This document shows, in pieces, positions 1,631 to 42,074 of a DNA stretch of 64,000 nucleotides. The DNA comes from Helicobacter sp. MIT 99-5507. GTDB lineage: Bacteria > Campylobacterota > Campylobacteria > Campylobacterales > Helicobacteraceae. The stretch is from contig NZ_NXLO01000001.1 of assembly GCF_003364295.1 (NCBI RefSeq), positions 1 to 64,000 of the forward strand, read 5' to 3'. The translations under genes were made by a program, and so were the position numbers. How positions within the stretch are numbered: position 1 is the stretch's first letter; every line of letters begins with the position of its first letter. The notes beneath the pieces are model-generated. The model searched no databases, was not told the DNA's origin, and saw only the letters and a program-made list of their open reading frames with translations.

Positions 1631-1634
1631 AGCT

Positions 1635-3699: not shown

Positions 3700-3760
3700 T
3701 AATTTTTATAGCTTTGATTGCAAAATCTTTTATACAATTTTGCAATATAAAGGAATATTT

Positions 3761-4090: not shown

Positions 4091-4126
4091 ATATTTTAAT
4101 AATGTTTATTTAAAAGCTAAATTTCT

Positions 4127-5338: not shown

Positions 5339-5422
5339 TGCCAGATTCCAAAATTTAAGGTTTTGAGAGGTTTTTGATTAGTTTTGTATAAGTAAAGATG
5401 GTTTAATAGGATTAGTAGATAA

Positions 5423-6253
5423 CTAGCTGCCCCCCCCCTCAGTTTTAGAAATCATATATTTTATATATTTTATAAAATTAATTTCTTTTATTTTTTTAAG
5501 TGGTTTAATGAAAATAAATAGCGGAGAAATGGCTAAATGATTTTCTTTCCAAGCCCTAAAACATTCTACATTTGCTTCATAGATATTTTTTAAGTTTTGA
5601 TTTGATACGCCACCTATTTTCATTTTTACAAAATTATCATTTATGTAAAGATTATTTATATTATGTTTTACAAGAAGTCTAAGCATTAGCTCATAATCCC
5701 CAGCTATTTTATATGATAAGTCAAATTTACCATATTTATTAAATATCTCTTTTCTTGCATAAAATGTTGGGTGTGCAGGATGGAATCCTTTTTTAAAATC
5801 TTTTTTACTAATATTTCGTCCTTGCAATTTTCTTATTATTTGATATCTAGAATCTATATATTCCAAATTAGCACTAATAGTTTCTACTTTTTTATTTCCA
5901 GGTTTGTTAAATGCCCAATTTATTATGCTTAAAATATTATTGTTTGAAAAAAAATCATCAGAATTTAGAAATCCTATCAAATCACCGCTAGATAGCTCAA
6001 TACCTCTATTAAATGCATCATATATTCCTAAATCTTTTTTGCTTGATATTATTAGTTTTATATTTTTTGCTTCATATATTGGTTTGTAAGATTCTATTAT
6101 TTTAAGAGTATTATCATTGCTTTTTCCATCTACTATAATATGCTCTATATTTAAATAGTTTTGACTAGAGACAGAATCTAGCGTCTGCTTAATTGTAGCT
6201 TGTGAATTAAATGTAGCAGTAATAACTGATATTTTATAATTAATAAAATCCAA
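5423..6253 (-). CDS. GT2-family glycosyltransferase
   Basis: 276 aa, TTG start preceded by G-rich sequence. The GT2 (GT-A fold) signatures are clear: ISVITATFNSQATIKQTLDSV at the N-terminus, HIIVDGKSNDNT, GIYDAFNRGIELSSGDLIGFLNSDD with the metal-binding acidic pair near residue 98, and the HPAHPTFYARKEIF acceptor segment. Similar enzymes act in LPS or O-antigen assembly at the cytoplasmic face. The ORF ends in a G9 tract coding EGGGS and a stop. It precedes the permuted GT4 ORF. Sugar specificity is unknown. Confidence 0.85.
   Translation of the reverse strand: MDFINYKISVITATFNSQATIKQTLDSVSSQNYLNIEHIIVDGKSNDNTLKIIESYKPIYEAKNIKLIISSKKDLGIYDAFNRGIELSSGDLIGFLNSDDFFSNNNILSIINWAFNKPGNKKVETISANLEYIDSRYQIIRKLQGRNISKKDFKKGFHPAHPTFYARKEIFNKYGKFDLSYKIAGDYELMLRLLVKHNINNLYINDNFVKMKIGGVSNQNLKNIYEANVECFRAWKENHLAISPLFIFIKPLKKIKEINFIKYIKYMISKTEGGGS
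5430..5438 (-). repeat. C9 (coding-strand G9) tract at the 3' end of the GT2 gene
   Basis: Nine C on the plus strand, just before the TAG stop. With G8 the GT2 ORF would extend about 33 codons and end in a TGA that overlaps the downstream ATG as ATGA; with G10 it stops within a few codons. Confidence 0.85.
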
Positions 6254-10874: not shown

Positions 10875-12802
10875 TTACCACATAACCTTTATATTAAACA
10901 TACCTGTGTTACTTATTGATTTATCGCCAAAGCTTCCTATATAATCCAAATTCAAACTAATAGTGTTATTTATATACCAATCTATTCCAAGTCTTAAATA
11001 TCCTAGAATCGTATCTGCGCCAATATCAAAAGTATCATATCCACCTATAATAATTTTTGCTTGTGGTTTTGTAAATAGATATTTTGTGCCAATTCCAGCA
11101 TTTACTCCAAATCTGCTAGCAAATATTTTATTATAAAAAAGATAGATATCACTATAAACTAACATGATAAAATTTTTCATATATATTTCATTTGTGAAAT
11201 TAATCTCATTATTTTGCAATCCTGTAGTATTTATACCAAGCTCCAAGTTTAGATTGCCTGCATTATCAAAATTAAAGGTTTTTCCAAGATATGCATTTGC
11301 ACCAAAACCAAGTGAATTTGGACTTTGTTCTTGATTGTTTAATGCAGCTTTATTTAATAAATAAAATACATCTCCAAATATCTTAAAATAAAGTCCATAT
11401 ACCATATCTAGCTTATAATGCAATCCTAGCAGTGTTGTTATTGTAGATATGTCTGTCTCAAATGCATCTTTTTTGCCACTTAAATTTCCATAGCTAAAGG
11501 CTGTATGGATTCCAAGTGTATTATTAGAATCTACACCAAAGTTCAATCCGCTTACAAATCCATAATTAAAACCACTTAGCCCAAATCCATTATTTTGTGT
11601 AAGTATATTGTGTGAAATAAATGGAGTAAAAAAGAAATTATTAGCTGTATTATTATTTTGGGTTCTAGCTCTACTATTTTGTCTTGTTTGTGATAGTTTT
11701 AATCTAAGATTCTCTCTTTCATTTTTATAATAGAATCTTTCATATTCTCTAAAATCTACTGCTAGATATGAATTATCTGCATTATTAGATGAAAGAGTGG
11801 ATTTACCTATACCCCCCCCCATCCACTTATAGAATTGCTTGTAAAAATAAATACAGATTGCAATAGATTATTTATAGATTGAATATTGCTTTTATAGATT
11901 GCATTTCCTACACTTGAGCTTGTATCAACTCCGATTCTAAAATAAGTTCCATTTCGTTCTAAATAATATATTGGGCTTTGAGTGCTAAGATGTGAAAACA
12001 AGTCTGACACACTGCCACCATCTTTGTATGTCAAATCATATTTATTACCATCTTGTTTTGTGATGAGTTTATCTATAGAATAATTATTGTTTAGATTAAA
12101 ACTGCTACCAACACTTAGGATAAATTTAGAATCTTTATTTATGGTTATATAATGATTGCTGCTTCCATTTGTATAAATTACTAAATGAGAAGTATCATTA
12201 CTCCAAGTAGAATAACCATTAAAGCTATTAAAAGTATTAGAATCTTGATTTATATGTAGATGATAATTTCCCAAAGTTGCTTTTATGCTATTGGCTCCAT
12301 TAGTACCACAAAAAGTTGCATAATTACCACTACCACTACCGCTACATTGCACTTGATTTACAAGATAAATATTACCGTAGTTATTTAGTAGTCCTATTTC
12401 TGAATTTCCACCGCTACTTTGTTTTATTCCTTGTATATTGCCATTATTTGTTAGTGTAGTTATTTTTGTGTTACTATCACTTAAGCTTATATATCCATTG
12501 ATATTGCCATTATTTATCAAGGTTGTAATAGTTACATTAGTTTTAATATCAAAAGCATCATATCCTGTGCTTGTTGTAGGATTTATTGTTGCATTATTTA
12601 TAATAGTTGTGTAGGATTTATTTATATCTATACCATCATTTACATCAGCATTTATTGTGCAAGTATCACCACTGCAATTTGGAAGTGTGCTAATATCTGT
12701 GCTATTATTTGCTGCTGCTAAAGGATTTAATGTAAAAGAAAGAGTTGTTATTTTTATCAAACTGCTGAAATTAAAGATACTATTTAGATTTGATATTTTC
12801 AT
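10875..12802 (-). pseudogene. Autotransporter-like outer membrane protein, split by frameshift at a G9 tract (phase OFF)
   Basis: Two abutting frames make one protein. The 5' frame (12802-11807) has a signal-peptide-like start, low-complexity passenger repeats of the NNGNI type (for example TTLTNNGNIQG) and stops just after the tract as SGWGGV. The 3' frame (from the tract to 10875) is a beta-barrel autotransporter domain with alternating strands and a terminal aromatic residue (MW). With one more G (10) the frames join into about 642 aa. Nine G gives a truncated, presumably unanchored passenger. I regard it as a phase-variable gene in the OFF state rather than a decayed one, because both frames are otherwise clean. 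Confidence 0.75.
11812..11820 (-). repeat. C9 (coding-strand G9) tract, switch of the autotransporter gene
   Basis: Nine C on the plus strand. In-frame joining of the two autotransporter frames needs 10 (or 7) residues. Confidence 0.85.
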
Positions 12803-27961: not shown

Positions 27962-28777
27962 CTACAATCTTTCTAATATAATTTTATCTTCCATAAAATC
28001 ATTATAAATTTCTTTATTTATTTGTGATTTAGAAAACGCAATGAAGTAATTATTTTTTACATCTTGTTTATTGTATAAAAGTTGTTTTTTTGTATTAAAA
28101 TCAAGTATTATTCCGCCACTTTCTCTTAAAATAATATCACTTGCTGCGATATCCCACTCTTTTGTCCCATTAAATCGTGGATAAATATCGGCTTTTCCTT
28201 CTGCAATAGAACATATTTTTAGTGATGAACCAAGTGTTTGTTTTATTAATTTATATTTTTTTATAAAATTATCTACATTTTTTGTGCTATGGAATCTACT
28301 ATCAAGTGCTATTATAGCTGTTGTATCTTTTTGACTATAAATCCTTATTGCATTATCAATGATATTAGAATCTTCTAATACATAAGCTCCATTTTTTTCC
28401 AATGCAAAATACATTTTTTTTAATGCTGGTGCATATACTACACCAAGTATTGGTATATTGTGCTTTAATAAAGCTATATTGATTGTCCATTCATTATTTT
28501 TTGATATAAAATCTTTTGTCCCATCTAGCGGGTCTATAAGCCATAAATATTCTTCATTTTTTCTTTTACTATAATCTAATATATCTTCTTCAGAATTAAT
28601 TTTAAAAGAACTAATAGCTTGCAAATTATGAGTAATTATTCTATTAGATTCTATATCAGCTTTTGTTAATGGAGAATCATCATCTTTTTTTATAAAACTT
28701 GTATCGCCATAGTATTTTAATACTATTTCTCCTGCCCTAAAGGCTATATTGATTACATTATTTAGCAAATCTTTCAT
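27962..28777 (-). CDS. cysQ: CysQ-type 3'(2'),5'-bisphosphate nucleotidase at the end of the phosphoramidate island
   Basis: 271 aa. Inositol-monophosphatase fold with the CysQ pattern: DDDSPLTKADIESNR, metal-binding EED, IDPLDGTKDFISKNNEWTIN, then GSSLKICSIAEGKADIYPRF and EWDIAASD. CysQ normally removes the 3'-phosphate of PAP left by sulfotransferases. Here it overlaps the nucleotidyltransferase by four bases (ATGA) and is the last gene of the operon. I infer that it clears the 3'-phosphorylated cytidine nucleotide released by the phosphoramidate transferases. I know of no such gene in the C. jejuni MeOPN locus. Family assignment is firm; substrate is inference. Confidence 0.9.
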   Translation of the reverse strand: MKDLLNNVINIAFRAGEIVLKYYGDTSFIKKDDDSPLTKADIESNRIITHNLQAISSFKINSEEDILDYSKRKNEEYLWLIDPLDGTKDFISKNNEWTINIALLKHNIPILGVVYAPALKKMYFALEKNGAYVLEDSNIIDNAIRIYSQKDTTAIIALDSRFHSTKNVDNFIKKYKLIKQTLGSSLKICSIAEGKADIYPRFNGTKEWDIAASDIILRESGGIILDFNTKKQLLYNKQDVKNNYFIAFSKSQINKEIYNDFMEDKIILERL

Positions 28778-29520
28778 AGTTTTGTTTCCAAATCCGCAAT
28801 AGAATCTATCTCTATCCAGCCTCTATTGATAAAAACTGGCTCTATATTATTAAATGTATTTATTATTTCTTGCAAAAAACTAGTCATATACATATTATAA
28901 AAATCCTTTCCATCATAGATTCTGCTTTTATCCAAACTATCATAAAAATCAATCATTGTTGTTATGAAATTATGTGATATTTTAAATAACCCTATATATT
29001 GTCCTTCTATTTCATCAATAGAATCTACTTTTTTGCCTATTTCTATGATTTTATTATTTTTGATTTTTAAACTTTCTGCATCACTTAATACATCTTCAAA
29101 TCTATCATTCCACAACTCTTTCCAATTTTTATCAACAATAACACCAAAATCACCATCATAGTTTTTTAATTTTTTTATAATTTCACTTTTGTATATAATA
29201 TCTGCATATGTGATTATTAAATCTTGTTTATCTTTTGCACAAGATTCTAGAAATTCTCTTGCACAAAACATAGTCCATACCATATTTGTATTTTCAAATC
29301 TATCATTGATATAAAATTTATTAATATTTATATATTGCTTTAAAACATTAGATAAATATCCGCCAATAATACCTATATCAGTGATATTATTTTCTTTTAA
29401 TGCCTCTAGCTCATAATCAATAATTGATTTATTATTATATTTCACCATACATTTTGGAATATCATTTGTTAGTGGTGCAAGTCTCGTGCCTTTTCCTGCT
29501 GCTAATATTAAAGCTCTCAT
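28774..29520 (-). CDS. Nucleotidyltransferase, Cj1416-like (CTP:phosphoglutamine cytidylyltransferase)
   Basis: 248 aa. Starts with the nucleotidyltransferase signature MRALILAAGKGTRLAPLTNDIPKCMVKYNNKSIIDYEL and has the metal-binding YADI motif (residue ~90). On sequence alone it could be a LicC-like phosphocholine cytidylyltransferase or sugar-1-phosphate enzyme. Its place between the amidotransferase-like hydrolase and the island's other MeOPN-type genes matches Cj1416 of C. jejuni, which makes a CDP adduct from phosphoglutamine. An AAAGGAT RBS overlaps the previous stop. Specificity is inferred from context. Confidence 0.85.
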   Translation of the reverse strand: MRALILAAGKGTRLAPLTNDIPKCMVKYNNKSIIDYELEALKENNITDIGIIGGYLSNVLKQYININKFYINDRFENTNMVWTMFCAREFLESCAKDKQDLIITYADIIYKSEIIKKLKNYDGDFGVIVDKNWKELWNDRFEDVLSDAESLKIKNNKIIEIGKKVDSIDEIEGQYIGLFKISHNFITTMIDFYDSLDKSRIYDGKDFYNMYMTSFLQEIINTFNNIEPVFINRGWIEIDSIADLETKL

Positions 29521-29522
29521 TT

Positions 29523-30110
29523 CTATCCTTTTATATTTTGTAAAAAAGATTCTAAAATATCTCTACTTGGAATACTTAATATTTTTTCTCGCTCGATATG
29601 CCACATCATTCCAAAAATAGGAAATTTTTTATGTTTAAAAGATTCTATTGTATCATCATCTGCTTTTGCTGTGATTTCCAAAGTATTTCCTAATTTTGTA
29701 ATACAATAATTATGAAACGAATTGACTTTGTATGTTTGATTTTTAAATTTTATTGTATGTTGTTTATTTACATGGTTTGGCATTTTTTGTAATGTAGATT
29801 TAAAATAATACGCCAGAATCTGAGCACCTCTACATACACCAAGTATCGGGATATTAGATTTTATGCAATATTTAATGATATTTTTTTCATATTTATCTCT
29901 TAATATGCTTAGATTATTTGGATTTAGATGTGATAAGTCATTTCCACCACTAAATATAACACCATTGATATTATATTTTTCTATAGGTTTTGTATAACTA
30001 AGCGGTATAAAATCAGTATCACTTAATAATTCTCCCCACTCTAGGCTCAAAGCTTCCCTAATTTCATAATAAGTGCTATTTTGTTCTAATCTTTGAGTGA
30101 TACCTATCAT
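29523..30110 (-). CDS. Class I amidotransferase-fold hydrolase, Cj1417-like (gamma-glutamyl-CDP-amidate hydrolase)
   Basis: 195 aa, glutamine-amidotransferase class I fold. Nucleophile elbow GVCRGAQ around residue 95; catalytic His and Glu in MMWHIERE near residue 178; NGVIFSGGNDLSHL is the oxyanion strand region. In the MeOPN pathway this enzyme removes glutamate from the CDP-glutamyl adduct, leaving cytidine diphosphoramidate. A generic gamma-glutamyl-GABA hydrolase is the alternative, but the neighbours on both sides argue for the MeOPN role. ATG overlaps the kinase stop by four bases. Confidence 0.85.
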   Translation of the reverse strand: MIGITQRLEQNSTYYEIREALSLEWGELLSDTDFIPLSYTKPIEKYNINGVIFSGGNDLSHLNPNNLSILRDKYEKNIIKYCIKSNIPILGVCRGAQILAYYFKSTLQKMPNHVNKQHTIKFKNQTYKVNSFHNYCITKLGNTLEITAKADDDTIESFKHKKFPIFGMMWHIEREKILSIPSRDILESFLQNIKG

Positions 30111-32428
30111 AATATAAATACTTGATTATTAAGTGAATCTATTGTTAGTTTATTTGCATTTTTGTATGTTTTAAATCTATCTTCACCTACACCAATTACT
30201 GCTGGCAGCGATAATTCAGAACATCGTATCGCCATATGTGAATTTGCTCCACCATAGCATGTTATTAGACCTGCAATATTTTTGGTAAATAGATAATCAT
30301 ATCCTGGGTCTGCAGAATCTATCAAAACAATTTTATTTTCTAACTCTACATCACTTTCTAATGCAATTTTTGCTGTAATGATTTTTTGTGTAATAAAATT
30401 TGGTTGTGATTGCAGACTACTAAAATACAATATATCATTGCTATTTATTATCAATGGAGGCAGCTTTATTGCTTGTGTGACTTTATATTCTTCTTTATGT
30501 CTTTGTATTTCATTTCTAAATTTTTTGCTAGGAGGATCTTTGTATATTGTTGATTGCAAAGATAATATATTATTAATATCAAGGTGTGATAAATCCTCTT
30601 TGCTGATATTTAGCTCTTTCCCAAAAAGAGCGATAAAATCAAGTGTGCTTGATAGTAATTTTGTAAATTTAAATTTTGCTAACTCTCTTCCTTCTATTAC
30701 GATTCTAAAAAAATCAAATAATTCTTTTGCACTTATTTGGATTCCATTTTGCATAAGGATTGTGTCTAATTCACTTTCTTTTTGCTTACTTAGCCTAAAA
30801 ATATTATCTTGTTTTATAGTAGTATTATTTGTTGTGTTTGAGAAATAAATATCAAATGCCTCTTTATAACAAGGAGAAAGAATATTATAGCTTCCAGCAC
30901 GTAAATGTCCATATTTGTCTAAAAATTCTTCTTTTTTGATACTATTATTTTGCATTTTCATCATATCAATTGATAATTCTTTATTAATTGTTTTTAGAGA
31001 TAATAAAAATTGATTTTTTTCTAATACACTAAAAAACCCAATATCAACTAATGAATTTATCATTTGCATTGCTACAAATGCAGCCCTTGCGATTCCTGCA
31101 AATGGAAGTGTCCCAAATCTCTTGCAATCTTCAATAAGCCAATATATTTTATCTATAATATTTAGATTAGATTGCATTATAGAATCAAATCTACTCTCAA
31201 GCAATGCTATTTTGTTTAGATCTTTTAAATATAGACCACTTTTGGAATCTAAAATATTATTTGTAAGCGTTAATAAGCTAAATTCGATTCGCTTTAGCTC
31301 ATTTTGATTAAAGCCATGTTTTTTTAATATCTGCAATTTATTTGGTAGATTAAAATCATAACATGAAAAAACTATATCAAATTCAATTTTATCATGTAAG
31401 TGTGGCTTGGATTCTAATGCTTTTAGATAATAATTCACTAGCTTATTTGCTATTGTTTCATCTAGTTTTTTTGGTATAAACGAATTAAATGATAATCTTA
31501 CATCAATGTAGGGCACGCCCAAAAATGAATACATCAATGGGTGAGATCTTAGATTTCTATATCCATAATTATCCCTTTGATACGCCCAAATATTATCAGT
31601 CACTAATTCTTTATATAAAGATAAAGCAAGTCTTTTTGGTTTTAGTCCTATTATCTCTGCTGGATTCCAATCTGGCATAACACCAAAAATCGTTTTATCA
31701 CCTAATATATGCGGATGTCGTAATGATAGATTATCTATTTGTGTTTGCAATCGCTTTAAGATTCCACTATTTATTGCATTAAAATAGTTATTTTTATTTT
31801 TCATTACAAGTGGGCGGACTTGTAAAATATATAAATCACCATTTTTTGTAAATGCAAATTCTACATCTAGGGCATTATTATCAAAAATAGATTCTAATTC
31901 TAATAGTGTTTTAATAATTTTATTTATTTTCTTATTTTTTGATTTATGTTCTCTAAAAACTATGATATTTGTTAGATTTGAAGTTTGACCACTTGTTACA
32001 CTATCGCTACTACCGCTTTCATCATAGCTTATACAAAAATATGGTGCATAATTATCTTTATCTACACTAAATGCAACGCCGCATATATCGATAGATTCTA
32101 ACATCGGCTGCACTAAAATGTAATTATCTTTACAACCCCACCCCATGGAGGATTTTACTTTTCTTAGTGCATCTTTTAGTGCTTTTGTATCATTTGTATT
32201 GATATTTGGTATGCTCAAAAATGCCCCAGCATTAGAGGTAGAATCTGTATCTTCATTGCTTGCAGAGCTTCTTAATATTACCTTATTGCCTAATTTTTGT
32301 ATATTACTAATTATATTTTTATTATCAATATCATCTACCATTACCAAAGGGAGAATCTTTGCATTTTTAATAATTGTAGATAGATTTTTTAGATTCTCTC
32401 CTTTGTTTATAAATGATAATTTTTTCAA
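30107..32428 (-). CDS. PEP-synthase/PPDK-like kinase, Cj1418-like (L-glutamine kinase)
   Basis: 773 aa, close to the size I recall for the C. jejuni enzyme. The N-terminal ATP-grasp domain of the PPDK family shows KVILRSSASNEDTDSTSNAGAFLSI and VEFAFTKNGDLYILQVRPLV (residues 50-215). A long unfamiliar middle follows, and the C-terminus is the phosphohistidine domain TCYGGANSHMAIRCSELSLPAVIGVG with the swivelling His. Cj1418 phosphorylates the amide of glutamine, forming the P-N bond and committing to phosphoramidate. Start is TTG 32428 after AAAGGGGA. Not ordinary PEP synthase, whose C-terminal TIM-barrel domain is missing. Confidence 0.88.
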   Translation of the reverse strand: MKKLSFINKGENLKNLSTIIKNAKILPLVMVDDIDNKNIISNIQKLGNKVILRSSASNEDTDSTSNAGAFLSIPNINTNDTKALKDALRKVKSSMGWGCKDNYILVQPMLESIDICGVAFSVDKDNYAPYFCISYDESGSSDSVTSGQTSNLTNIIVFREHKSKNKKINKIIKTLLELESIFDNNALDVEFAFTKNGDLYILQVRPLVMKNKNNYFNAINSGILKRLQTQIDNLSLRHPHILGDKTIFGVMPDWNPAEIIGLKPKRLALSLYKELVTDNIWAYQRDNYGYRNLRSHPLMYSFLGVPYIDVRLSFNSFIPKKLDETIANKLVNYYLKALESKPHLHDKIEFDIVFSCYDFNLPNKLQILKKHGFNQNELKRIEFSLLTLTNNILDSKSGLYLKDLNKIALLESRFDSIMQSNLNIIDKIYWLIEDCKRFGTLPFAGIARAAFVAMQMINSLVDIGFFSVLEKNQFLLSLKTINKELSIDMMKMQNNSIKKEEFLDKYGHLRAGSYNILSPCYKEAFDIYFSNTTNNTTIKQDNIFRLSKQKESELDTILMQNGIQISAKELFDFFRIVIEGRELAKFKFTKLLSSTLDFIALFGKELNISKEDLSHLDINNILSLQSTIYKDPPSKKFRNEIQRHKEEYKVTQAIKLPPLIINSNDILYFSSLQSQPNFITQKIITAKIALESDVELENKIVLIDSADPGYDYLFTKNIAGLITCYGGANSHMAIRCSELSLPAVIGVGEDRFKTYKNANKLTIDSLNNQVFIL

Positions 32429-32438
32429 AAAATCCCCT

Positions 32439-33218
32439 TTAATTTACTTTTTTTGCACTCCAGCATCTAGTAGTGTATTTTATATTAAAGCTACTTGGAA
32501 GCCTATGTTTCATCTGGTATGCAATTTTTTCAAATAATTCATTTCCACTTTTTTGCTCTAAATCCCAATATGGGTTTTTCACGCTTTTCCATGCATTGAT
32601 ATAGTTTTCAACACTTTGATGAAAATAAAAATCTTGCTCTATATATATTATATTATCAAATAGATCTTTTCTGCTTTCAATTATTGGACGTTGGTCTTCT
32701 CTACGGACACCTCTAGTGTAGTTTGGCACTAAATCCATTATAATTTCTTCTGCGATTTCTTGAATAGGATCATTTAAATCTCTATGATTCCACATGCAAG
32801 AAAAATATCCATCATCTTTTAGGATTCTATGTGTTTCTTGCAATGCCAAATCTCTATCCATAACATTAAAACTACTTCCAAAAGTAACCCAATCAAAAGC
32901 TTTATTTTCTAATGTGCTTTCAATACCAATTGCTCTTACCCATTTTATATTTTGATTCTTTGTTCGTTCAATTCCAATTTCTCTCATCGCATCATTTGGC
33001 TCTACCGATGTAACTTCACAGCCCCGCTCTAATAGCATTATGCTTAAATTACCAGTTCCAGCACCAATATCTGCTACTTTTATTTTAGAATTCCCCCCCC
33101 CCATTTTGCTAACAAGATATGCAAGCATATCAATACAACTAGGTGCATAATTTGGTCTATATTCATAAAATTTAGCGTGTTTTGTGTAATCCCAATTTTG
33201 TTCTACTATTTTTTTCAT
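32439..33218 (-). CDS. SAM-dependent methyltransferase, phase-variable (Cj1419/Cj1420-like)
   Basis: 259 aa class I methyltransferase. Motif I is VADIGAGTGNLSIML, followed by SVEPNDAMR and the post-II strand FDWVTFGSSF. Its paralogue is the next gene upstream. A G10 tract encodes MGGG just before motif I and is in frame as sequenced, so the gene is ON; slippage would truncate it before the SAM site. In C. jejuni the equivalent methyltransferases are associated with O-methylation of the phosphoramidate. Acceptor here is inferred. Confidence 0.85.
   Translation of the reverse strand: MKKIVEQNWDYTKHAKFYEYRPNYAPSCIDMLAYLVSKMGGGNSKIKVADIGAGTGNLSIMLLERGCEVTSVEPNDAMREIGIERTKNQNIKWVRAIGIESTLENKAFDWVTFGSSFNVMDRDLALQETHRILKDDGYFSCMWNHRDLNDPIQEIAEEIIMDLVPNYTRGVRREDQRPIIESRKDLFDNIIYIEQDFYFHQSVENYINAWKSVKNPYWDLEQKSGNELFEKIAYQMKHRLPSSFNIKYTTRCWSAKKVN
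33093..33102 (-). repeat. C10 (coding-strand G10) tract in the methyltransferase gene
   Basis: Ten C on the plus strand. Reads in frame as M-G-G-G-N ahead of the SAM-binding motif. Confidence 0.88.
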
Positions 33219-33238
33219 ATTTTTATTTCCTTTCTTTT

Positions 33239-34012
33239 TTAATTATTAACCTTTTTGGCACTCCAAGCTCGAATCTTATATGGTATCTCAATAATATCTA
33301 GATTCTGTATTTTATCTTTTATCATAGCCATTATTTTATTCCATCTTTCTTCCCCTGCTTGTGCTTGTATATCATTTACTGATTGCCATGCCCCTAAATA
33401 TCTTTCTTTACTCATCATCTCAATATAATCACATTCCATAAAGAAACAATCTATAAAATCATTTGTTGATACTAGAATCTCCTCCCATTTTTTTGTATTT
33501 TGTGAGCCAGAACTAACTCTATTTAATTCTGGAATAATATTTTTTATCTCCTCTTCTATTTGATAAAATATAGAATCTTTTATTATATTTCTAGGATTCC
33601 ATATCGCTGTGAAATATCCTCCATTTTTTAAGATTCTTCTAAATTCTGGCAATGATTTTGTATGGTCAGTCCAATGAAATGATGATGCCATTATCACCCA
33701 ATCAAATTCATTTGCTTTCATTGTTGTATTTTCACCATCACCTTTAAACCATTTTATATTTGTATTTTTTGTATATTCTATGCCTTCATTTCTCATCGCA
33801 TCATTTGGTTCTACTGCACTGACATTAAAACCAAAATTTGATAGCATTTTTGTAAGCTTTCCTGTTCCTGCGCCAACTTCGCATATTTTGAAATCTTTTA
33901 TATCTTTGTTAAATGTATTTACACATAAAAATAACTTTTCTAATAACATGGCACTATATGCAGGTCTATTGATATAATATTTTGCTACTTGTGTGAAATC
34001 ACCTTGTTTCAT
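33239..34012 (-). CDS. SAM-dependent methyltransferase (second paralogue, no G tract)
   Basis: 257 aa. Motif I is ICEVGAGTGKLTKML, then SAVEPNDAMRNEG, FDWVIMASSFHWTDH and a C-terminus ending RAWSAKKVNN, nearly the same ending as the neighbouring paralogue (RCWSAKKVN). The two share the whole domain order and so arose by duplication. This copy lacks a homopolymer, giving one constant and one switchable methyltransferase. Probably methylates phosphoramidate or a sugar of the decorated glycan. RBS GGAG precedes the ATG. Confidence 0.85.
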   Translation of the reverse strand: MKQGDFTQVAKYYINRPAYSAMLLEKLFLCVNTFNKDIKDFKICEVGAGTGKLTKMLSNFGFNVSAVEPNDAMRNEGIEYTKNTNIKWFKGDGENTTMKANEFDWVIMASSFHWTDHTKSLPEFRRILKNGGYFTAIWNPRNIIKDSIFYQIEEEIKNIIPELNRVSSGSQNTKKWEEILVSTNDFIDCFFMECDYIEMMSKERYLGAWQSVNDIQAQAGEERWNKIMAMIKDKIQNLDIIEIPYKIRAWSAKKVNN

Positions 34013-34019
34013 GTTTTCT

Positions 34020-35192
34020 TTATTCTCCTTTGAAATGATTTAAAAATCTTTTTGTATATGTAAAGCTATCAAATATCATCGGGGCTTCTTTTTTGATATA
34101 AAAAAGTTCATCATCAATATCTTTTGCTAATTGTTTTGAGAATGCAAGCAAATCATTTTTATCATCCAATAAAAAATCAATAATTTCATCTTCATTAAAC
34201 ATAAGATTATTGTGTTTTTCTATCATCAAGAGAGCATAATCTATATATTTATAAGCTTCTATGAGAGCTTTAGAAACTAATTCTTCTTTTGTATCTTTTG
34301 TGAATGATACTAAACAAAGAGGATAATCTTGGTAATTATCAATAATTATGTCATCTTTTAAAATATAATAATCTTTATTTATACAATCTTGTTTTTTTGC
34401 TACATTGCCATTCATATCTATTTCTTTTAAACTTTTATTAGTTAGTCTTGATACAGTTGATATTGCAAATTCCCCCCCCCCATCTATGCTAAAAATATGA
34501 GGAAAACATCTAGGAAAAATAGAGCCTTTTATTACACTCTCACTGCTGCAAATTTCTTTTGTGTTATTGTAAGGGAGTTTAAATCGCTTTATAAAATTAT
34601 TTAGTGTAGTTGGCATTTCACTTTCTCCTATATCTTTCATTGTTAGATATGTAATATCTAGTTTTAAATGATCTATTAGTTTTCTTTGTGAGCTAAAATA
34701 AAACATTAAATGTGAAATACCTTTTATAATTTCAATTAATTTATCTTGTGCATCTTTTTTATTATTTATCTTTGAAATACTATGAAACATAGTGACATTT
34801 ATATTGCTTTTTATGACAGAAATAGGATCTCGAACTATTTGATATACAGGGACTTTTTTGGTGCATGTTTGTAGAATCTTGTGGCTTTGATTATTTAGTG
34901 GGGCTTTATCTAAAACCATACCGCTAAAATTTCTATAAAATATAAATGGTCTTACTATTTCATAACTCCATATTTCTTCTGGTCTTGCTCCTATCTTTTT
35001 TAGATAATGAAACATCGCAGTCATTCCTAGTCCATGTCCGCCAAGGAGAATATAGTCATAATTTTGTGGATGAGGCAATAGATTGCAAGAGCTAATAACT
35101 TGCTTTGCAAACGGCAATCTATCAAAAAAAGCGTGGATTCTACCGCCTTTTAGCAATTTGAAAGCTGATTTTATTTTTCTTATTATTATCAA
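34020..35192 (-). CDS. Phosphoramidate transferase-like protein E (sulfotransferase-like, G10 tract)
   Basis: 390 aa from TTG 35192, which overlaps the upstream stop as TTGA and has GGAG upstream; the longer frame to 35228 would overlap 40 bp. Core motifs shared by the five paralogues: GGHGLG (residues 51-56, a P-loop-like 5'-phosphate site) and VRDPIS (120-125, like the sulfotransferase 3'-phosphate site). A G10 tract encodes GGG in SIDGGGEF and is in frame. C. jejuni Cj1421/Cj1422 MeOPN transferases are the expected relatives. Soluble cytoplasmic enzyme; acceptor sugar unknown. Confidence 0.8.
   Translation of the reverse strand: MIIIRKIKSAFKLLKGGRIHAFFDRLPFAKQVISSCNLLPHPQNYDYILLGGHGLGMTAMFHYLKKIGARPEEIWSYEIVRPFIFYRNFSGMVLDKAPLNNQSHKILQTCTKKVPVYQIVRDPISVIKSNINVTMFHSISKINNKKDAQDKLIEIIKGISHLMFYFSSQRKLIDHLKLDITYLTMKDIGESEMPTTLNNFIKRFKLPYNNTKEICSSESVIKGSIFPRCFPHIFSIDGGGEFAISTVSRLTNKSLKEIDMNGNVAKKQDCINKDYYILKDDIIIDNYQDYPLCLVSFTKDTKEELVSKALIEAYKYIDYALLMIEKHNNLMFNEDEIIDFLLDDKNDLLAFSKQLAKDIDDELFYIKKEAPMIFDSFTYTKRFLNHFKGE
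34472..34481 (-). repeat. C10 (coding-strand G10) tract in transferase E
   Basis: Ten C on the plus strand; encodes the GGG of IDGGGEF. Same protein position as the tract in transferase B. Confidence 0.88.
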
Positions 35193-36367
35193 GATTCTAT
35201 CTCCAAAAATTTCTTGTATTCTAACCAATTTTGAAATATATGTGAAGATTTTTCTTTTATTATGCTTGTTTCATGCTCTAGGAATGACTTGATTTTTTTA
35301 TATACATTTGGGTTATGTTTGAAGTATCTAAATAATATTTCTATATCTATTTTATATTTATTGTAGATATTTTCAATTTTTATAACTTCATAAAGATATT
35401 GTTCTACTTTTTTGTTTATCTCATTTAACAAATTATCATTAATTTGTATTTTTTCTTTGCTTGAGATATTTAACTTCCTATTTTTGAATTTTTTTGATAT
35501 ATAATTTTTGGTTATATAGAATCTAGAATCAAGTTTATTATATATATTTTTTTGTATATCAAATACACTAAAATCATCATCAAATGGCGATACCATAAAC
35601 TCTATACCATCAATATAAAATAAATGCGGGAATGATCTTGTAAATATATCATTAACATTGATATAAACTGCATTATCATCTGATGCCTTAATATTAATGT
35701 GTTTTGCTATATCATGCATTGTTGATTTTGCAATTTCTCCTTTTAGCATAGCTGTATCTATGAATTTTATATCCGTGATTTTATCTTTTATCATATTTAC
35801 ATTGCTAGTAAAGCCAATTACTGAAAACATGAATCTATCATCATTTATGATATTAATACAATCTTTTAAATCATTAATTTTATTTTTTGTTATATTTGTA
35901 TAGATTGTATGATTTATCGCAGATACTATTGCTAATATAGGATCTCTTACTAGGCAAATAGCTGGAGCTTGTTTTTTAAAATGTCTATTTAAATACTCTT
36001 GTATATCTTTATTATAACCATCTAGTGTAACTCCCCAAGCTCCATATCCATATCCTCTAAATAGCTCCCAATATATTCTTAGTGCTCTTTTATTATCAAG
36101 ATATTCTTTATGCAGGGCTATAAGTGTTAGTGGTAAGATATTGTTATGTTTCTTGATGTATGGGGGGGTAGTGCATTTAGATATATAATACAATAAAGAA
36201 TGATAGCCAACTCCATGCGTCCCAACTAGAAAGAAGCTATAACTCTGTGGTATTGGTAATATATCATCTAGTGATGCTGGAATTATTCTTAATAATATAG
36301 ATCTTATTATTAATTTGTATTCATTATTTTTTATACGATTGATTAGTGTATTTATTTTATTCATCAT
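35189..36367 (-). CDS. Phosphoramidate transferase-like protein D (no long tract)
   Basis: 392 aa. Motifs GTHGVG (49-54) and VRDPIL (140-145), then FIDTAMLKG and a C-terminal helix ending in the family pattern NWLEYKKFL. It is the most diverged of the five paralogues and the only one without a G8-G10 tract; it has just a C7 run coding TTPP near residue 67. It overlaps both neighbours (11 bp with C, 4 bp with E), so translation is coupled. May be the constitutively expressed member. Function inferred from the family. Confidence 0.78.
   Translation of the reverse strand: MMNKINTLINRIKNNEYKLIIRSILLRIIPASLDDILPIPQSYSFFLVGTHGVGYHSLLYYISKCTTPPYIKKHNNILPLTLIALHKEYLDNKRALRIYWELFRGYGYGAWGVTLDGYNKDIQEYLNRHFKKQAPAICLVRDPILAIVSAINHTIYTNITKNKINDLKDCINIINDDRFMFSVIGFTSNVNMIKDKITDIKFIDTAMLKGEIAKSTMHDIAKHINIKASDDNAVYINVNDIFTRSFPHLFYIDGIEFMVSPFDDDFSVFDIQKNIYNKLDSRFYITKNYISKKFKNRKLNISSKEKIQINDNLLNEINKKVEQYLYEVIKIENIYNKYKIDIEILFRYFKHNPNVYKKIKSFLEHETSIIKEKSSHIFQNWLEYKKFLEIES
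36162..36168 (+). repeat. G7 run (coding-strand C7) in transferase D
   Basis: Seven G on the plus strand, encoding the two prolines of CTTPPY. Opposite strand bias to the other tracts, and shorter, so switching should be rare. Confidence 0.6.
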
Positions 36368-37487
36368 TCACCTTTAAGAATTTTGTATAGTAAGTCCAAG
36401 ATTCTACAATATTTGGTGCATATTTTTTTACATTAGATATTTCATAATCTAGTAATTTTCTAAATTTTTTATATAGTATTTGATCGTTTTTAAAATATTC
36501 CAATACATCATTTTCATCAATCTTTGATTGGTCATAGATTTTAAATTTATCACTTAAATCTTTTAGATACTTAATTGCATATGAATTAATAGAATCTTTT
36601 ATTTCTTTGTTTATATGTTTTATTTTTATATTTTTTCCAATTAGACATATTGCAATTTTACGTTTTAAATTTATATCATCAATGATATTAATGATTTGGA
36701 ATCTCTTATGCAATGTATTTTCAAATGGAAGTATTTTTATATTAAAGATTTTGCCATTTATATCTATATCAAAATCTTTTTCTATATTTAATGCCAAAGA
36801 ATCTGCTATTTTTCTAGTGAAAAATTCTTTATCTATATCTATTTTATTAATGCCAATTTTGCTGCAGCATTTTTTAATCGTATTATAAGCATTTTGTTTT
36901 GATAGATCATTCATATCAATATATATTAGCTCTTTTGTGATATGTTTAAATTGATTTGGAGATGTTGTAAAGATGAAGTGATGAGGCATATCATCATAAG
37001 CTTTTAGATATGATAATAATGTATTTTTTATTAATACCTCATTCCCCCCCCCCATACCATTTACAATATTATCTGCTAACATCATATTTATTCCACCTCT
37101 AATGATACTAATAGGATCCCTAACCAAGCAAAATACAGGAACTTTTTTGTTTAGTTTTGAAATAAAATATAATCCACCATTGCAGTGATTTATATCTCTA
37201 TCACATACAATCCCATAAATCTTTCTATAGCTAAAAAAGCAAGTCCTATCAATTGCAGCAATATCAAATTTTCTCATTGGATATGCATTTACGATATTCA
37301 TAAAATGCCAAAATGCATTTCTTCCAGTTCCATGTGATGCTAGCATTATGTATCTATATCTTTGTGGTTTTAGTGTATTGCTCCAAAGTGATATTTTTTT
37401 CCCTAAGAATCCTGCAATAATCTTATCCCACCAACCATACTCAATGCATATTCTAATAGTATTTATTTTCTTTTTTATGATATTCAT
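36357..37487 (-). CDS. Phosphoramidate transferase-like protein C (G10 tract)
   Basis: 376 aa. Motifs ASHGTG (50-55) and VRDPIS (122-127), LIYIDMNDLSKQNAYNT, and the C-terminal YAPNIVESWTYYTKFL. A G10 tract encodes GGG at residues 146-148 (NGMGGGNE), in frame as sequenced. It is closest to protein B: 53-bp blocks at 36880-36932 and 37989-38041 differ at two bases. The ATG overlaps the upstream stop (TAATG). Role as in C. jejuni MeOPN transferases is inferred from motifs and locus. Confidence 0.8.
   Translation of the reverse strand: MNIIKKKINTIRICIEYGWWDKIIAGFLGKKISLWSNTLKPQRYRYIMLASHGTGRNAFWHFMNIVNAYPMRKFDIAAIDRTCFFSYRKIYGIVCDRDINHCNGGLYFISKLNKKVPVFCLVRDPISIIRGGINMMLADNIVNGMGGGNEVLIKNTLLSYLKAYDDMPHHFIFTTSPNQFKHITKELIYIDMNDLSKQNAYNTIKKCCSKIGINKIDIDKEFFTRKIADSLALNIEKDFDIDINGKIFNIKILPFENTLHKRFQIINIIDDINLKRKIAICLIGKNIKIKHINKEIKDSINSYAIKYLKDLSDKFKIYDQSKIDENDVLEYFKNDQILYKKFRKLLDYEISNVKKYAPNIVESWTYYTKFLKVNDE
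37044..37053 (-). repeat. C10 (coding-strand G10) tract in transferase C
   Basis: Ten C on the plus strand, about 20 codons after the VRDPIS motif. Same region of the protein as the tract in transferase A. Confidence 0.88.
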
Positions 37488-38719
37488 TACATTGCCTTAA
37501 ATTTTTTATAATAAATCCAAGATTCTACAATATTTGGCGCATAATCTTTTACTATAGATATTTCATCTCTAAATACTGCTTTATATTGTTTTTTTAGCTC
37601 TTGATTATTGTTTAGATAATCTATTATTTGCTCTTCATTGATTAGGTTGTTTTTCATATCTTTTATTATTTGAAGTATTGTGTTGTAATATGAATTTAGA
37701 TGAAATGTTATTAAATCTATTAAATTTTTATCATAATTTTTCACATCATTATTGCTATATACTTGCAATCCATACAAAAGCTTTTCTTTGAAAAATATAT
37801 CACTTACATTAATCATATTTTTTTCTTTTAAAAATACTTGTTGTGTGGTTGAAAATATGAGATTCCCCCCCCCATCAATATTAATTGTAAGTGGGATTAA
37901 TGTATTTACATCACCATATAATTTATGGGTAAAAAAATCTTTATTTGTTGGGTTTTTGAAGTTTAGCTTTTTAGATAATTTTTGCATTGTATTATAAGCA
38001 TTTTGGTTTGATAGATCATTCATATCAATAAATATTAGCTCACTAATTTTATTTTTTAAGATTCTATACAATGATGAAAACAGCACGATTTCTTTTATTT
38101 TATTGTCATTTTTATAGCTTGTGGTGGATATCAAATAAGCCAATAAATCTAAGCTAGGCTTTTTAGATTCTACTATTTCTCCATTTTTAAAATCTCTATA
38201 GCAGATTCTGTGATTTATAGAATCTAGAGCATTTTTGGTTATTTTATAAGCATTATTTTTTCTTATTATTTTTGTGTGCAATTCTAATGTGCTATTTTTA
38301 CTTATTGTTCTTAAATTTATATGGGATTTTAAAATACTAATAGGATCTCTTACTAAGATGATGGCTGGAATCTTTTGAGTGATTTTTTCTATTATTTTAT
38401 TTTCGCCCTCTACATTGAGTTCAGCAAAAGTTATACCACATATTTGCTTTTTTGGTTTGAATAATAAATGCGTCAAATACATATAACATCGTTTATAATA
38501 GCCTTCAAATGCATAATACCAATTTACCCTAACATTGCAATATTGTAAAAATAATAAAAACGCATTTCTTCCTAATCCATGCGAACCAATGATAATAAAG
38601 TCAGCTTTTTTTGGAAACTTGATATGGAAAATATCCATCACTTTTATAATAACTTTATAAAAATACTTATCAATGCATTTTTTAAATGGCTTTAAAATAA
38701 ATTTTAAGATTCCTCTCAT
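37487..38719 (-). CDS. Phosphoramidate transferase-like protein B (G9 tract)
   Basis: 410 aa, longest of the five. Motifs GSHGLG (45-50) and VRDPIS (123-128), LIFIDMNDLSNQNAYNT, and YAPNIVESWIYYKKF near the end. A G9 tract encodes IDGGGN and is in frame. AAAGGGGAT precedes ATG 38719. There is a 50-bp gap to protein A, the only sizable gap in the island's transferase run. Sulfotransferase-like fold is inferred from the two phosphate-binding signatures; the acceptor is unknown. Confidence 0.8.
   Translation of the reverse strand: MRGILKFILKPFKKCIDKYFYKVIIKVMDIFHIKFPKKADFIIIGSHGLGRNAFLLFLQYCNVRVNWYYAFEGYYKRCYMYLTHLLFKPKKQICGITFAELNVEGENKIIEKITQKIPAIILVRDPISILKSHINLRTISKNSTLELHTKIIRKNNAYKITKNALDSINHRICYRDFKNGEIVESKKPSLDLLAYLISTTSYKNDNKIKEIVLFSSLYRILKNKISELIFIDMNDLSNQNAYNTMQKLSKKLNFKNPTNKDFFTHKLYGDVNTLIPLTINIDGGGNLIFSTTQQVFLKEKNMINVSDIFFKEKLLYGLQVYSNNDVKNYDKNLIDLITFHLNSYYNTILQIIKDMKNNLINEEQIIDYLNNNQELKKQYKAVFRDEISIVKDYAPNIVESWIYYKKFKAM
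37865..37873 (-). repeat. C9 (coding-strand G9) tract in transferase B
   Basis: Nine C on the plus strand, encoding the GGG of IDGGGN. Confidence 0.88.
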
Positions 38720-38769
38720 ATATCCCCTTTTTTTGAGTAAAAGGTAAATTCTACACTTTTTTAAACAAA

Positions 38770-39843
38770 TTAAAAAGATTCTAAAAAATTATTATAATAT
38801 TTCCATGATTGTATGATTTTTGGTGTATTTTCTTTTATCGTTGTTAATTCATAATCTAAATATTTTTTTATATATTTTTTCATTTCTATATTATTATTAA
38901 AATATTCAAGTATGATTTTTTCAAATCCTCCATTATCGCAAAAATCTTTTAGTATATAAAATTTATTTTCATTATCTTTAGAATCTATATAAAAATGCTT
39001 GTGAATATTCATAGAGGAATAGTTTGCATCAAAATCATTTATTTTATTATTAAAATTTATATCAAGAATATTTGCTATATTTTTCATTGTATCAAATGAT
39101 TTTAGTGGTGTGCTTATATCGTTTGTATCTATGAAATACAGACTTTTTGTTGCATTTGTTAATTGTAAATTTAGTGAAGTAAAACAAAAAAATGGAATGA
39201 TTTTGCTTTTTGTGATTGTTTGGGTTAGGAAAGTGATTATTTCATTGATAGTGTTATATATTTCATTTTTTAATACATTATCAAGATATGTGATCTCTTG
39301 CTGCCCCCCCCTATTTAGTGCGATAGTATTTGTTTTTATTCCATATACTAATTTTGGCATTAAAGCATTATGAGTATGTGTCCTAAAAATACTAATAGGA
39401 TCTCTAACTAGGCATAATATTGGCACTTTATGATTTAATTTTGATAATATATTTTTTCTTGTATTATCAATATATGCTTTTTCTATACTAAGTCCATAAA
39501 ATTTGCCTTTGTAATTTTGCGCTTGTTTTCTTGCGAGTAATACATAATCACTTCTAGCAAACATATTATCCAAAGTCATAGGATTTGCCCCTAGATTCTG
39601 CATATATTTGATAAACGCTACAAACCCAACTCCATGGCTACCAGCAATGATATAAGAATAATCTTGTGGCATACTAAAGAATCTCGTCCAATGGCTAGAT
39701 ACAAAAATATTATATTTAAATTGATGATTATTATAGAATCCACCTTGTATATGTGGTAAAAACCATGTCAAGATTCTTTTAAAAATATATTTAAATTCTT
39801 TATTTTTAATATGTTGAAATAATCTTTTTATCTTTGTATTCAT
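38770..39843 (-). CDS. Phosphoramidate transferase-like protein A (G8 tract)
   Basis: 357 aa. Motifs GSHGVG (68-73) and VRDPIS (146-151), LYFIDTNDIS, and the C-terminal NTPKIIQSWKYYNNFL. A G8 tract encodes NRGGQ (residues 178-180), in frame as sequenced. The ATG directly follows the cysC-like stop (TAAATG), so the donor-activating kinase and first transferase are translated together. Length and motif spacing agree with the other four paralogues. Transfer of MeOPN (or another group from a 3'-phosphonucleotide donor) is inferred. Confidence 0.8.
   Translation of the reverse strand: MNTKIKRLFQHIKNKEFKYIFKRILTWFLPHIQGGFYNNHQFKYNIFVSSHWTRFFSMPQDYSYIIAGSHGVGFVAFIKYMQNLGANPMTLDNMFARSDYVLLARKQAQNYKGKFYGLSIEKAYIDNTRKNILSKLNHKVPILCLVRDPISIFRTHTHNALMPKLVYGIKTNTIALNRGGQQEITYLDNVLKNEIYNTINEIITFLTQTITKSKIIPFFCFTSLNLQLTNATKSLYFIDTNDISTPLKSFDTMKNIANILDINFNNKINDFDANYSSMNIHKHFYIDSKDNENKFYILKDFCDNGGFEKIILEYFNNNIEMKKYIKKYLDYELTTIKENTPKIIQSWKYYNNFLESF
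39304..39311 (-). repeat. C8 (coding-strand G8) tract in transferase A
   Basis: Eight C on the plus strand, encoding R-G-G about 27 codons after VRDPIS. Confidence 0.85.
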
Positions 39844-40371
39844 TTATTTTACCCATTGTATTTTTTGAGTTTTAATATATTTTAATATTTGCTTTGCTTT
39901 TAAATCCGCATTATTTTGCACATTATTATCTATAGTGATATTTGGTGTTGGAATATCGTATTTTATATCAATACCAATTACATCTTTTACCCTGCCTTCT
40001 ATTGCACCAGTATATAATCCTTTTTGATCTCTTTTTATCAATTCTTCCATATTGCATTCAATATATACTTCAAGATAATTTTTAAATATATTTCTATTGT
40101 TTTTATATACTTCATTAAATAATGAAATTGTTGATGCAATCACTACAATATCTTGTTGTGATAATAAACTACAAAGCCTAGCTCTATTAAAAGCTACCTC
40201 TATCCTAGAATCTTTATCAAATTTATTATTACTAAAAATTTCTCTAAATCCATCACCATCTAAATATACTATATTTGGTATTTCTTGTTTTATGATATTG
40301 TATAGTTCTTTTGATATGGTGCTTTTACCGCTTCCAGATAGTCCATTTATCCATATAACAAGTCCGCTCAT
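39844..40371 (-). CDS. cysC: APS-kinase-fold protein, Cj1415-like (cytidine diphosphoramidate kinase)
   Basis: 175 aa. Walker A is INGLSGSGKSTISKEL and the substrate motif is LDGDGFREIF, where canonical APS kinases have DGDNxR. Databases name such genes cysC, but C. jejuni Cj1415 phosphorylates the 3'-OH of cytidine diphosphoramidate instead of APS. No ATP sulfurylase genes (cysD/cysN) are in the window, and all other MeOPN enzymes are, so I favour the Cj1415 role. The product, a 3'-phosphonucleotide donor, explains why the transferases look like sulfotransferases. ATGA overlap with the flippase gene. Confidence 0.87.
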   Translation of the reverse strand: MSGLVIWINGLSGSGKSTISKELYNIIKQEIPNIVYLDGDGFREIFSNNKFDKDSRIEVAFNRARLCSLLSQQDIVVIASTISLFNEVYKNNRNIFKNYLEVYIECNMEELIKRDQKGLYTGAIEGRVKDVIGIDIKYDIPTPNITIDNNVQNNADLKAKQILKYIKTQKIQWVK

Positions 40372-42074
40372 TTTACCTCTATTTTAATTGGGCATCGCTC
40401 AATTGTGCTTAATCTATGTGCTATGATAAGCAATGTTTTATCTTTTGATACATCATATATTTCATCCATTATTTGAGATTCTGTATCATTATCCAATGCA
40501 CTTGTTGCCTCATCAAGCACTAATATTTCTGGATTATTATACAAAGCTCTAGCTATTGCAATCCTTTGCTTTTGCCCACCACTTAGTTTTATTCCACCAT
40601 CACCTACAATGGTATTTATTCCTTGATTTTTTTCTAAAAAATCCCAAATTCTTGCTTTTTTACATACTTCAATAATCTTATCTTTATCTATTTTGTCATT
40701 TAATACAATATTTTCTGCAACACTCCCATCAAATAAAAATACACTTTGTGGAATATAGCCAATTTTTTTTCTCCAAGACCTAAGATTTGAATTATCAAGT
40801 AATTTACCATCAATCCTCATCTCACCACTTTTTGGTTTATATATCCCAATGATTAAATCAACCAATGTGCTTTTTCCTGCTCCACTTTTGCCAATAAATG
40901 CTATTTTATCGCCTTTATTTATCACTAGATTAAAATCTTTTATAATAGGTTTATTTGTTAGATATTCAAATGTTATATTTTTTAATTCTACTTTTTCATT
41001 AAATTCTATTTTTTCATTATCTTCAGCTTCTGTATGATATATCATATCTTCATATACAATATCTAAGCCTCTTTTGTGGAATCTAGACATATTATAACTT
41101 GCTAGAATCTTATTTACAGAAGGCAAGATTCTATATAATGCTAGTGCATACATTGATATTATTGGTATTACAGCTGCTGCGTCATTATATTTTATTAGTA
41201 TATATACAACAGATGCTGTTAATACGCAAAATCCTATTGTCTCAAGTATAAATTTTGGAAGTGGCAGTAAGGTTTGGGTGATAATTTCTGTGCTTACTTT
41301 TTCTAAAGAGGCTTTGTTGAATGCTTCAAGGACATTTCCTTGCTCTCCTTTTAGTTTTATAATCTTAAAATTTCCAAGCGTTTTTGTGATGATTTTTAAA
41401 AATTGCTCGCTTAGTTCTGCTTGCATCTCGCCTTTTTTTCGTATTGTTTTTGATATAGTTTTTGTAATAAGCAAGACATTTATCCCAAGTATAAATGTAA
41501 GCACAATAGTCATTTTCCAGCTAATTATCAATAGCAGTGAATACATAAGTGTTATTGTGATGATTTCTGAAGCCATTAATAAAATTTGTTGTATAAATTG
41601 CGATGCTTGCATGGCTTCAGTCGTGATATTTCGCCTAATTGTATCTGCATTTTTATTTGTAAAATCCAAATAGCTAAGCTCTGTTGTTTTACAAAATAAT
41701 CTATATGCAAAAAAATGATATTTTTTGAATGCAAATCTATTTAGTGCGTAGGAATAAGCGATATTTGCAATTGCTCTAAAAACATAAAATACAATCATTG
41801 TAAAGCCAAACCATACAATGAATTCTGTTGTATTGCTAGCATTTAAAAAATCATATAAATATTTAGATACTTTATTTTCAAAAATCATATTTGGATTTGA
41901 TGCAAATGTGATAAATGGCATAATGATACTAATCCCGATTGTTTCAATGATTGAGATACTAAGTGTAGCAAAAAGTAAAAATATCAATATGACTTTATCA
42001 CGCCTTGACATCAAATATCGAATTTTTGTTAAATCGCTTATATTTGAATATGATTTTATTTTATTTTTTTTCAT
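40368..42074 (-). CDS. PglK/WlaB-like ABC flippase (fused membrane and ATPase domains)
   Basis: 568 aa. Residues 25-320 hold six membrane helices; the C-terminal ATPase has Walker A IGKSGAGKST, Q-loop IGYIPQSVFLFDGS, signature LSGGQKQRIA, Walker B ILVLDEATSALD and H-loop IAHRLST. Helix regions (SIIETIGISIIMPFI, FYVFRAIANIAYSYALNRF) resemble Campylobacter PglK, which flips lipid-linked heptasaccharide. The C-terminus ends about 15 residues after the H-loop, shorter than PglK. As first gene of the island, it suggests the decorated glycan is built on a lipid carrier. MsbA-like lipid export is the alternative. Confidence 0.85.
   Translation of the reverse strand: MKKNKIKSYSNISDLTKIRYLMSRRDKVILIFLLFATLSISIIETIGISIIMPFITFASNPNMIFENKVSKYLYDFLNASNTTEFIVWFGFTMIVFYVFRAIANIAYSYALNRFAFKKYHFFAYRLFCKTTELSYLDFTNKNADTIRRNITTEAMQASQFIQQILLMASEIITITLMYSLLLIISWKMTIVLTFILGINVLLITKTISKTIRKKGEMQAELSEQFLKIITKTLGNFKIIKLKGEQGNVLEAFNKASLEKVSTEIITQTLLPLPKFILETIGFCVLTASVVYILIKYNDAAAVIPIISMYALALYRILPSVNKILASYNMSRFHKRGLDIVYEDMIYHTEAEDNEKIEFNEKVELKNITFEYLTNKPIIKDFNLVINKGDKIAFIGKSGAGKSTLVDLIIGIYKPKSGEMRIDGKLLDNSNLRSWRKKIGYIPQSVFLFDGSVAENIVLNDKIDKDKIIEVCKKARIWDFLEKNQGINTIVGDGGIKLSGGQKQRIAIARALYNNPEILVLDEATSALDNDTESQIMDEIYDVSKDKTLLIIAHRLSTIERCPIKIEVK

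Follow-up and report, generated by a model that had tools for sequence, protein, structure and literature searches.

Within the first 64,000 nucleotides of contig NZ_NXLO01000001.1 of Helicobacter sp. MIT 99-5507 (referred to here as the window), we identified a minus-strand operon at positions 27962-42074 that is probably a complete phosphoramidate glycan-decoration system, related to the one that produces O-methyl phosphoramidate (MeOPN) in Campylobacter jejuni. Its gene content is confirmed and its assignment to the pathway is well supported; from these we infer the substrates used here, the order of the reactions, the product, the acceptor and the export route. We give roughly even odds to a specific form of this system, in which the phosphoramidate is placed on a lipid-linked glycan (O-antigen or N-glycan) exported by a PglK/Wzk-type flippase in a kps-free lineage. 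It would be made by a phosphoramidate version of the 3'-phosphoadenosine 5'-phosphosulfate (PAPS) pathway, with a CysC-type donor kinase, sulfotransferase-fold transferases and CysQ-type recycling, and would be combinatorially phase-variable via several transferases and a methyltransferase. The core chemistry is already known; what is new is the kps-free setting, the compact sulfotransferase-fold array and the linkage to cysQ- and pglK-like genes.

The operon and its biosynthetic core

The 13 genes form a single tightly packed operon in which neighbors overlap by up to 40 bp or are separated by up to 50 bp, with several ATGA overlaps, as the original prediction had described. In the order of transcription, they are as follows:

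40368..42074, minus strand: PglK/Wzk-type ABC flippase, leading the operon (NF050066 PglK, 564.8 bits, full length)
39844..40371, minus strand: CysC-like kinase, Cj1415 counterpart (NF004041, 226.6 bits against a cut-off of 127; 48% identity)
38770..39843, minus strand: T5, candidate phosphoramidate transferase (DUF2972, 40.2 bits; NF058596, E 1.4e-24; C8 tract at 39304)
37487..38719, minus strand: T4, candidate phosphoramidate transferase (DUF2972, 83.6 bits; NF058596, 169.5 bits; C9 tract at 37865)
36357..37487, minus strand: T3, candidate phosphoramidate transferase (DUF2972, 70.3 bits; C10 tract at 37044; modelled with a sulfotransferase fold)
35189..36367, minus strand: T2, candidate phosphoramidate transferase (DUF2972, 33.5 bits; NF058596, 72.8 bits; G7 tract at 36162)
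34020..35228, minus strand: T1, candidate phosphoramidate transferase (no Pfam match; NF058596, E 8.3e-22; C10 tract at 34472)
33239..34012, minus strand: MT2, S-adenosylmethionine-dependent methyltransferase of the Cj1419/1420 type (PF08241; 65% identity)
32439..33218, minus strand: MT1, S-adenosylmethionine-dependent methyltransferase of the Cj1419/1420 type (PF08241; 76% identity; C10 tract at 33093, codon 42)
30107..32428, minus strand: glutamine kinase, Cj1418 counterpart (NF004508, 1008 bits against a cut-off of 501; 55% identity)
29523..30110, minus strand: gamma-glutamyl-CDP-amidate hydrolase, Cj1417 counterpart (NF045546, 251.1 bits against a cut-off of 250; CRGAQ and HxE motifs)
28774..29520, minus strand: cytidylyltransferase, Cj1416 counterpart (PF00483; 53% identity)
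27962..28777, minus strand: predicted CysQ-like 3'-phosphonucleotidase (TIGR01331, 222.5 bits against 228.8, just under the cut-off)

All genes claimed in the original prediction are present on this strand, and the CysQ-like and PglK-like members at the two ends of the operon had been missed. The claim that every step of C. jejuni MeOPN biosynthesis has a homologue here held up: the glutamine kinase, the hydrolase and the CysC-like kinase pass curated NCBIfam cut-offs, and the nucleotidyltransferase and the two methyltransferases have Pfam matches. The identities listed above are to a kps-linked Campylobacter cluster (L110) in which about 100 bp separate the end of cysC from kpsC; for the core enzymes they range from 48 to 76%. 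The hydrolase is 50% identical to its counterpart in that cluster and retains the CRGAQ nucleophile motif as well as the His-x-Glu part of the triad, and the top PDB match of the cytidylyltransferase is CTP:phosphocholine cytidylyltransferase. The pathway steps themselves are those of the published C. jejuni enzymology (summarized in PMC6429109), and their assignment to this operon is supported by the curated models, the identities and the gene order. Compared with the C. jejuni MeOPN module (Cj1415-Cj1422), the kinase, cytidylyltransferase, hydrolase, 3'-kinase and two methyltransferases are the same, and the transferases are phase-variable in C. jejuni and probably also here. However, the Helicobacter genome lacks kpsC/S, its five transferases are compact and without the N-terminal part, and the operon includes the CysQ-like and PglK-like genes.

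Flippase, likely acceptor glycan and capsule genes

The acceptor is most likely an undecaprenyl-linked glycan destined for lipopolysaccharide (LPS) or protein, since a PglK-type flippase is encoded in the operon, PglB and WaaL-like genes are present in the genome, and the PglK relative Wzk flips O-antigen in Helicobacter pylori (PMC2841628). The flippase scores below the NF050066 cut-off of 1000 bits and hence is referred to here only as PglK/Wzk-like; the next full-length homologue in the genome is 29% identical. A single STT3/PglB gene was found at C2:378.6 kb, with no further pgl gene recognized beside it, and two WaaL/Wzy-like genes are located at about C4:122.8-125.6 kb. As for C. jejuni PglK, which flips the N-glycan, and H. 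pylori Wzk, there is a full-length ABC flippase homologue in a single close copy, with PglB and WaaL-like proteins encoded elsewhere in the genome, but the gene here heads a phosphoramidate operon instead of lying in a pgl locus.

A serious contender, to which we assign somewhat less than an even chance, is that the operon makes and attaches phosphoramidate and that pglK is a mere transcriptional neighbor, the acceptor then being, for example, the LPS core, a flagellin glycan or a non-Kps polysaccharide. The pglK linkage is seen only in the host genus and is missing from other Helicobacteraceae clusters, and the location of the PglB and WaaL-like genes away from the operon also fits this explanation. 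However, the pglK-like gene overlaps cysC by 4 bp, lies directly ahead of it in each of the three carrier species within the genus and encodes the only close PglK homologue in the genome.

The statement in the original prediction that no kps capsule genes occur in the window holds for the whole host genome (1.53 Mb in 7 contigs, 99.97% complete), in which a search with PF05159 gave no KpsC/KpsS match, and we therefore rejected a Kps capsule setting. The same search gave no KpsC/KpsS match in the host genus at all, with three carrier species covered. Among 71 pathway-positive Campylobacterota genomes, defined by a strong hydrolase match (roughly at least 150 bits), 34 were without KpsC/KpsS: none of 23 in Campylobacter genus g22, 29 of 42 in the Helicobacteraceae and 5 of 6 others, with genus names assigned from family handles and C. 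jejuni-type gene content. An overlooked Kps-type capsule as the acceptor, that is, the classical setting, would agree with the presence of KpsC/KpsS in all 23 carriers of Campylobacter genus g22, and the search covered PF05159 and not other capsule types. This explanation nevertheless is very unlikely, given the missing PF05159 matches in the host, its congeners and most Helicobacteraceae carriers. In addition, where both strong matches do occur in Helicobacteraceae, they are unlinked: the kps and pathway loci lie within 20 kb of each other in 0 of 9 such genomes versus 8 of 23 for Campylobacter, although contig breaks limit these counts. According to a 2019 review, Campylobacter was the only group in which MeOPN had been identified (PMC6429109). 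Because the pathway genes are widespread in Helicobacteraceae, often without kpsC/S, this chemistry does not appear to be tied to the Kps type of capsule. In C. jejuni the modification acts as a phage receptor (PMC5808241), and for this reason questions of that type become testable on other glycans.

Tandem transferases and a predicted 3'-phosphonucleotide donor

The original prediction had named two transferases, homologous to Cj1421/1422. Transferases are indeed present, but we found five of the DUF2972 type, and their homology to the C. jejuni enzymes is distant rather than close. T2 to T5 pass the DUF2972 (PF11186) gathering cut-off of 22.2 bits, and T1, whose start codon is uncertain (TTG; 40-bp overlap with T2), is unmatched but aligns with T2 to T5. 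Alignment to NF058596, the model of the CJJ1420-type MeOPN transferase, is confined to about positions 232 to 594 of 596, the C-terminal 60%, and the N-terminal part of the Campylobacter transferases is missing. In C. jejuni, it is the N-terminal residues 1 to 244 that the transferases have in common, with a variable C-terminal part (PMC5808241). The others are 23 to 31% identical to T3, so their divergence must be old, and they probably modify different positions of the glycan. In a survey of 397 Campylobacterota genomes, the presence of DUF2972 was strongly associated with that of the hydrolase (both in 56, the hydrolase only in 15, DUF2972 only in 11 and neither in 315).

Since a PDB sequence search with T4 gave nothing useful, a structure model was made. 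The AlphaFold model of T3, built from a 46-sequence alignment (pLDDT 88.3, pTM 0.85), has a sulfotransferase fold: the top seven Foldseek matches are sulfotransferases, chiefly heparan sulfate 3-O-sulfotransferases, and in a VIA-align comparison (Z 12.9 over 213 residues at a root mean square deviation of 4.3) all 50 of the 50 listed rows were sulfotransferases. The transferase consensus PxxxLVRDPISxLKS has the sulfotransferase 3'-phosphate spacing RDPxxxxxS. This arrangement of an Arg and a Ser eight residues on is the 3'-phosphate-binding motif of sulfotransferases. Among the aligned transferases, the Arg is present in 45 of 46 and a Ser/Thr in 32 of 46, with T3 itself having a Gly at the Ser position. 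None of T1 to T5 matches Pfam Sulfotransfer_1/2 above the cut-off. A sixth DUF2972 protein comes within half a bit of doing so for Sulfotransfer_1 (E 1.7e-4, 21.5 versus 22 bits). Its solitary gene is located near a contig end at C1:463 kb (L058 8445-9657), between two pilin-like genes, and may be switched off here, because its reading frame is interrupted close to a C9 tract (L058 9389).

The fold, the motif and the gene content fit a transferase donor that would be a 3'-phosphonucleotide made by CysC. A sulfotransferase fold would thus give the MeOPN transferases a concrete mechanism and would explain both the need for a 3'-kinase and the accompanying CysQ-like gene. In the sequence of steps that we propose, the cytidylyltransferase would make CDP-glutamine, from which the hydrolase would free cytidine diphosphoramidate, and the CysC-like kinase would then add a 3'-phosphate. 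Two methyltransferases would methylate the phosphoramidate group, and the five transferases would shift it from the 3'-phosphonucleotide to different glycan hydroxyls. CysQ would strip the 3'-phosphate from the spent cytidine nucleotide; by analogy with the action of CysQ on 3'-phosphoadenosine 5'-phosphate, we suggest that the substrate released on transfer is cytidine 3',5'-bisphosphate. Finally, the PglK/Wzk-type flippase would export the decorated lipid-linked glycan toward LPS, via the WaaL-like proteins, or toward protein, via PglB. A literature search found no work linking MeOPN with a sulfotransferase, the original MeOPN enzymology lying outside that search; a broader match concerned sialyltransferase inhibitors.

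Several observations weigh against this proposal. The hydrolase clears its cut-off by just 1 bit. T1 to T5 score 73 to 170 bits against the NF058596 cut-off of 600 bits, compared with 750 bits for a Campylobacter control protein, and share only 23 to 29% identity with the Campylobacter enzymes. The Foldseek E-values are modest (best, 3.7e-3). Moreover, Campylobacter fetus, Campylobacter lari RM2100 and Campylobacter sputorum carry the genes yet gave no MeOPN signal (PMC3907429), so that gene presence is no proof of product, and the product here is a predicted one.

The system resembles PAPS-dependent glycan sulfation as carried out by heparan sulfate 3-O-sulfotransferases together with a CysC/CysQ cycle, with which it shares the transferase fold, the 3'-phosphate-binding spacing, the CysC-type donor kinase and the CysQ-type phosphatase. 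It differs in its predicted donor, 3'-phospho-cytidine diphosphoramidate, in the lack of above-cut-off Pfam sulfotransferase matches and in the sulfate-activation genes, which were not found: the genome has no match to the PAPS reductase/CysD family, for which 14 of 14 control genomes were positive, and neither ATP sulfurylase nor CysH was found. There is thus no recognizable route to adenosine 5'-phosphosulfate (APS), and sulfate activation was rejected as the role of these genes; the case in which they would prove to be sulfate-activation genes, which the original prediction had singled out as adverse to it, is contradicted by these absences. A role for CysC and CysQ in sulfate metabolism is unlikely here. 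The CysC-like kinase has SLF in place of the SPY of APS kinases; SLF, SMF or similar is found in the CysC-like proteins of these clusters, as opposed to SPY in four APS kinases of known structure. Highly improbable is a genuine glycan-sulfation system with the glutamine-kinase genes acting separately, for although CysC, CysQ and the sulfotransferase fold are its classical components, it is opposed by the missing route to APS, by the departure at the SPY motif and by the tracking of the hydrolase by DUF2972 across genomes.

The CysQ-like protein, named as such because it falls short of the TIGR01331 cut-off, is the sole match to its family in the genome. Among the Helicobacteraceae, 23 of 24 tested carriers have a CysQ match that reaches 190 bits or more, versus 6 of 24 noncarriers; in 21 of the carriers it belongs to the 190- to 226-bit class and mostly lies within or close to the cluster. 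Campylobacter has a weaker copy away from the cluster, alike in carriers and noncarriers. Four Helicobacteraceae genomes (G005, G014, G022 and G033) have a cluster-type CysQ-like gene (195 to 208 bits) but no strong match to the hydrolase; the gene may be left over from a lost cluster.

Probable phase variation, chromosomal setting and related gene trios

The window contains eight G/C tracts of at least 8 nucleotides, compared with 0.025 expected under a dinucleotide model. Five of them lie within MT1, T1, T3, T4 and T5, all of which are in frame here, and none lies in the core enzymes, CysC, CysQ or PglK; the shorter G7 tract of T2 is oriented opposite to the other operon tracts. The MT1 frame is broken at its tract in two sister species, one of which also has the T2 and T4 frames broken at or near tracts. 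Based on the poly-C tracts and these frame breaks, the phosphoramidate decoration is probably phase-variable, and slippage would toggle the five tract-bearing genes independently. The C. jejuni MeOPN transferases are switched likewise (PMC5808241). The three further tracts, each of 9 nucleotides (window positions 1503-1511, 5430-5438 and 11812-11820), fall within a fucosyltransferase-like gene and at the beginning of one glycosyltransferase-like and one outer-membrane-like gene, and because of these, other surface features may also phase-vary.

The term "island" used in the original prediction is misleading. Four tRNA genes lie about 270 bp from the operon end, and in related species the operon is flanked by identical neighbors, the four tRNA genes and murI/rho, which argues for a stable chromosomal locus. 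The base composition of the operon is near that of the remaining window, and a mobile island was rejected on these two grounds. In a contig scan with a single protein, the only sister genome found, and the closest named relative, was an uncultured Helicobacteraceae bacterium (CALUUD010000002.1), with glutamine kinases 80% identical; a scan of viral contigs found no relative.

The trio of glutamine kinase, hydrolase and nucleotidyltransferase also occurs on plasmids of other Proteobacteria, with hydrolase scores under the cut-off. These records (L111, L112, L113, L115, L117, L118 and L121) come from Azospirillum, Vibrio alfacsensis, Rhodobacterales and a deltaproteobacterium, and the DUF2972 transferase profile has no match in the plasmid-borne clusters. 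On Azospirillum plasmids with a CysC-type kinase and a methyltransferase nearby, two of three examined have annotated sulfotransferase-domain genes within ~7 kb; in Vibrio and Rhodobacterales, where CysC is missing, the neighbor of the trio is weakly similar to CDP-glycerol glycerophosphotransferase. In these few cases, the kind of transferase seems to match the donor and to vary with the presence or absence of a CysC-type kinase. On an Agrobacterium vitis plasmid (L116 7914-13003), the genes after the trio encode a LysE-type exporter and a CDP-alcohol phosphatidyltransferase, and CysC is missing; such a gene set might lead to a small secreted phosphoramidate or to a modified lipid. Lastly, MT837632.1 (L114 652-3687), an unverified "bacteriophage" scaffold from human feces that may be bacterial DNA, encodes a glutamine-kinase homologue whose reading frame also contains a weak hydrolase-like match.

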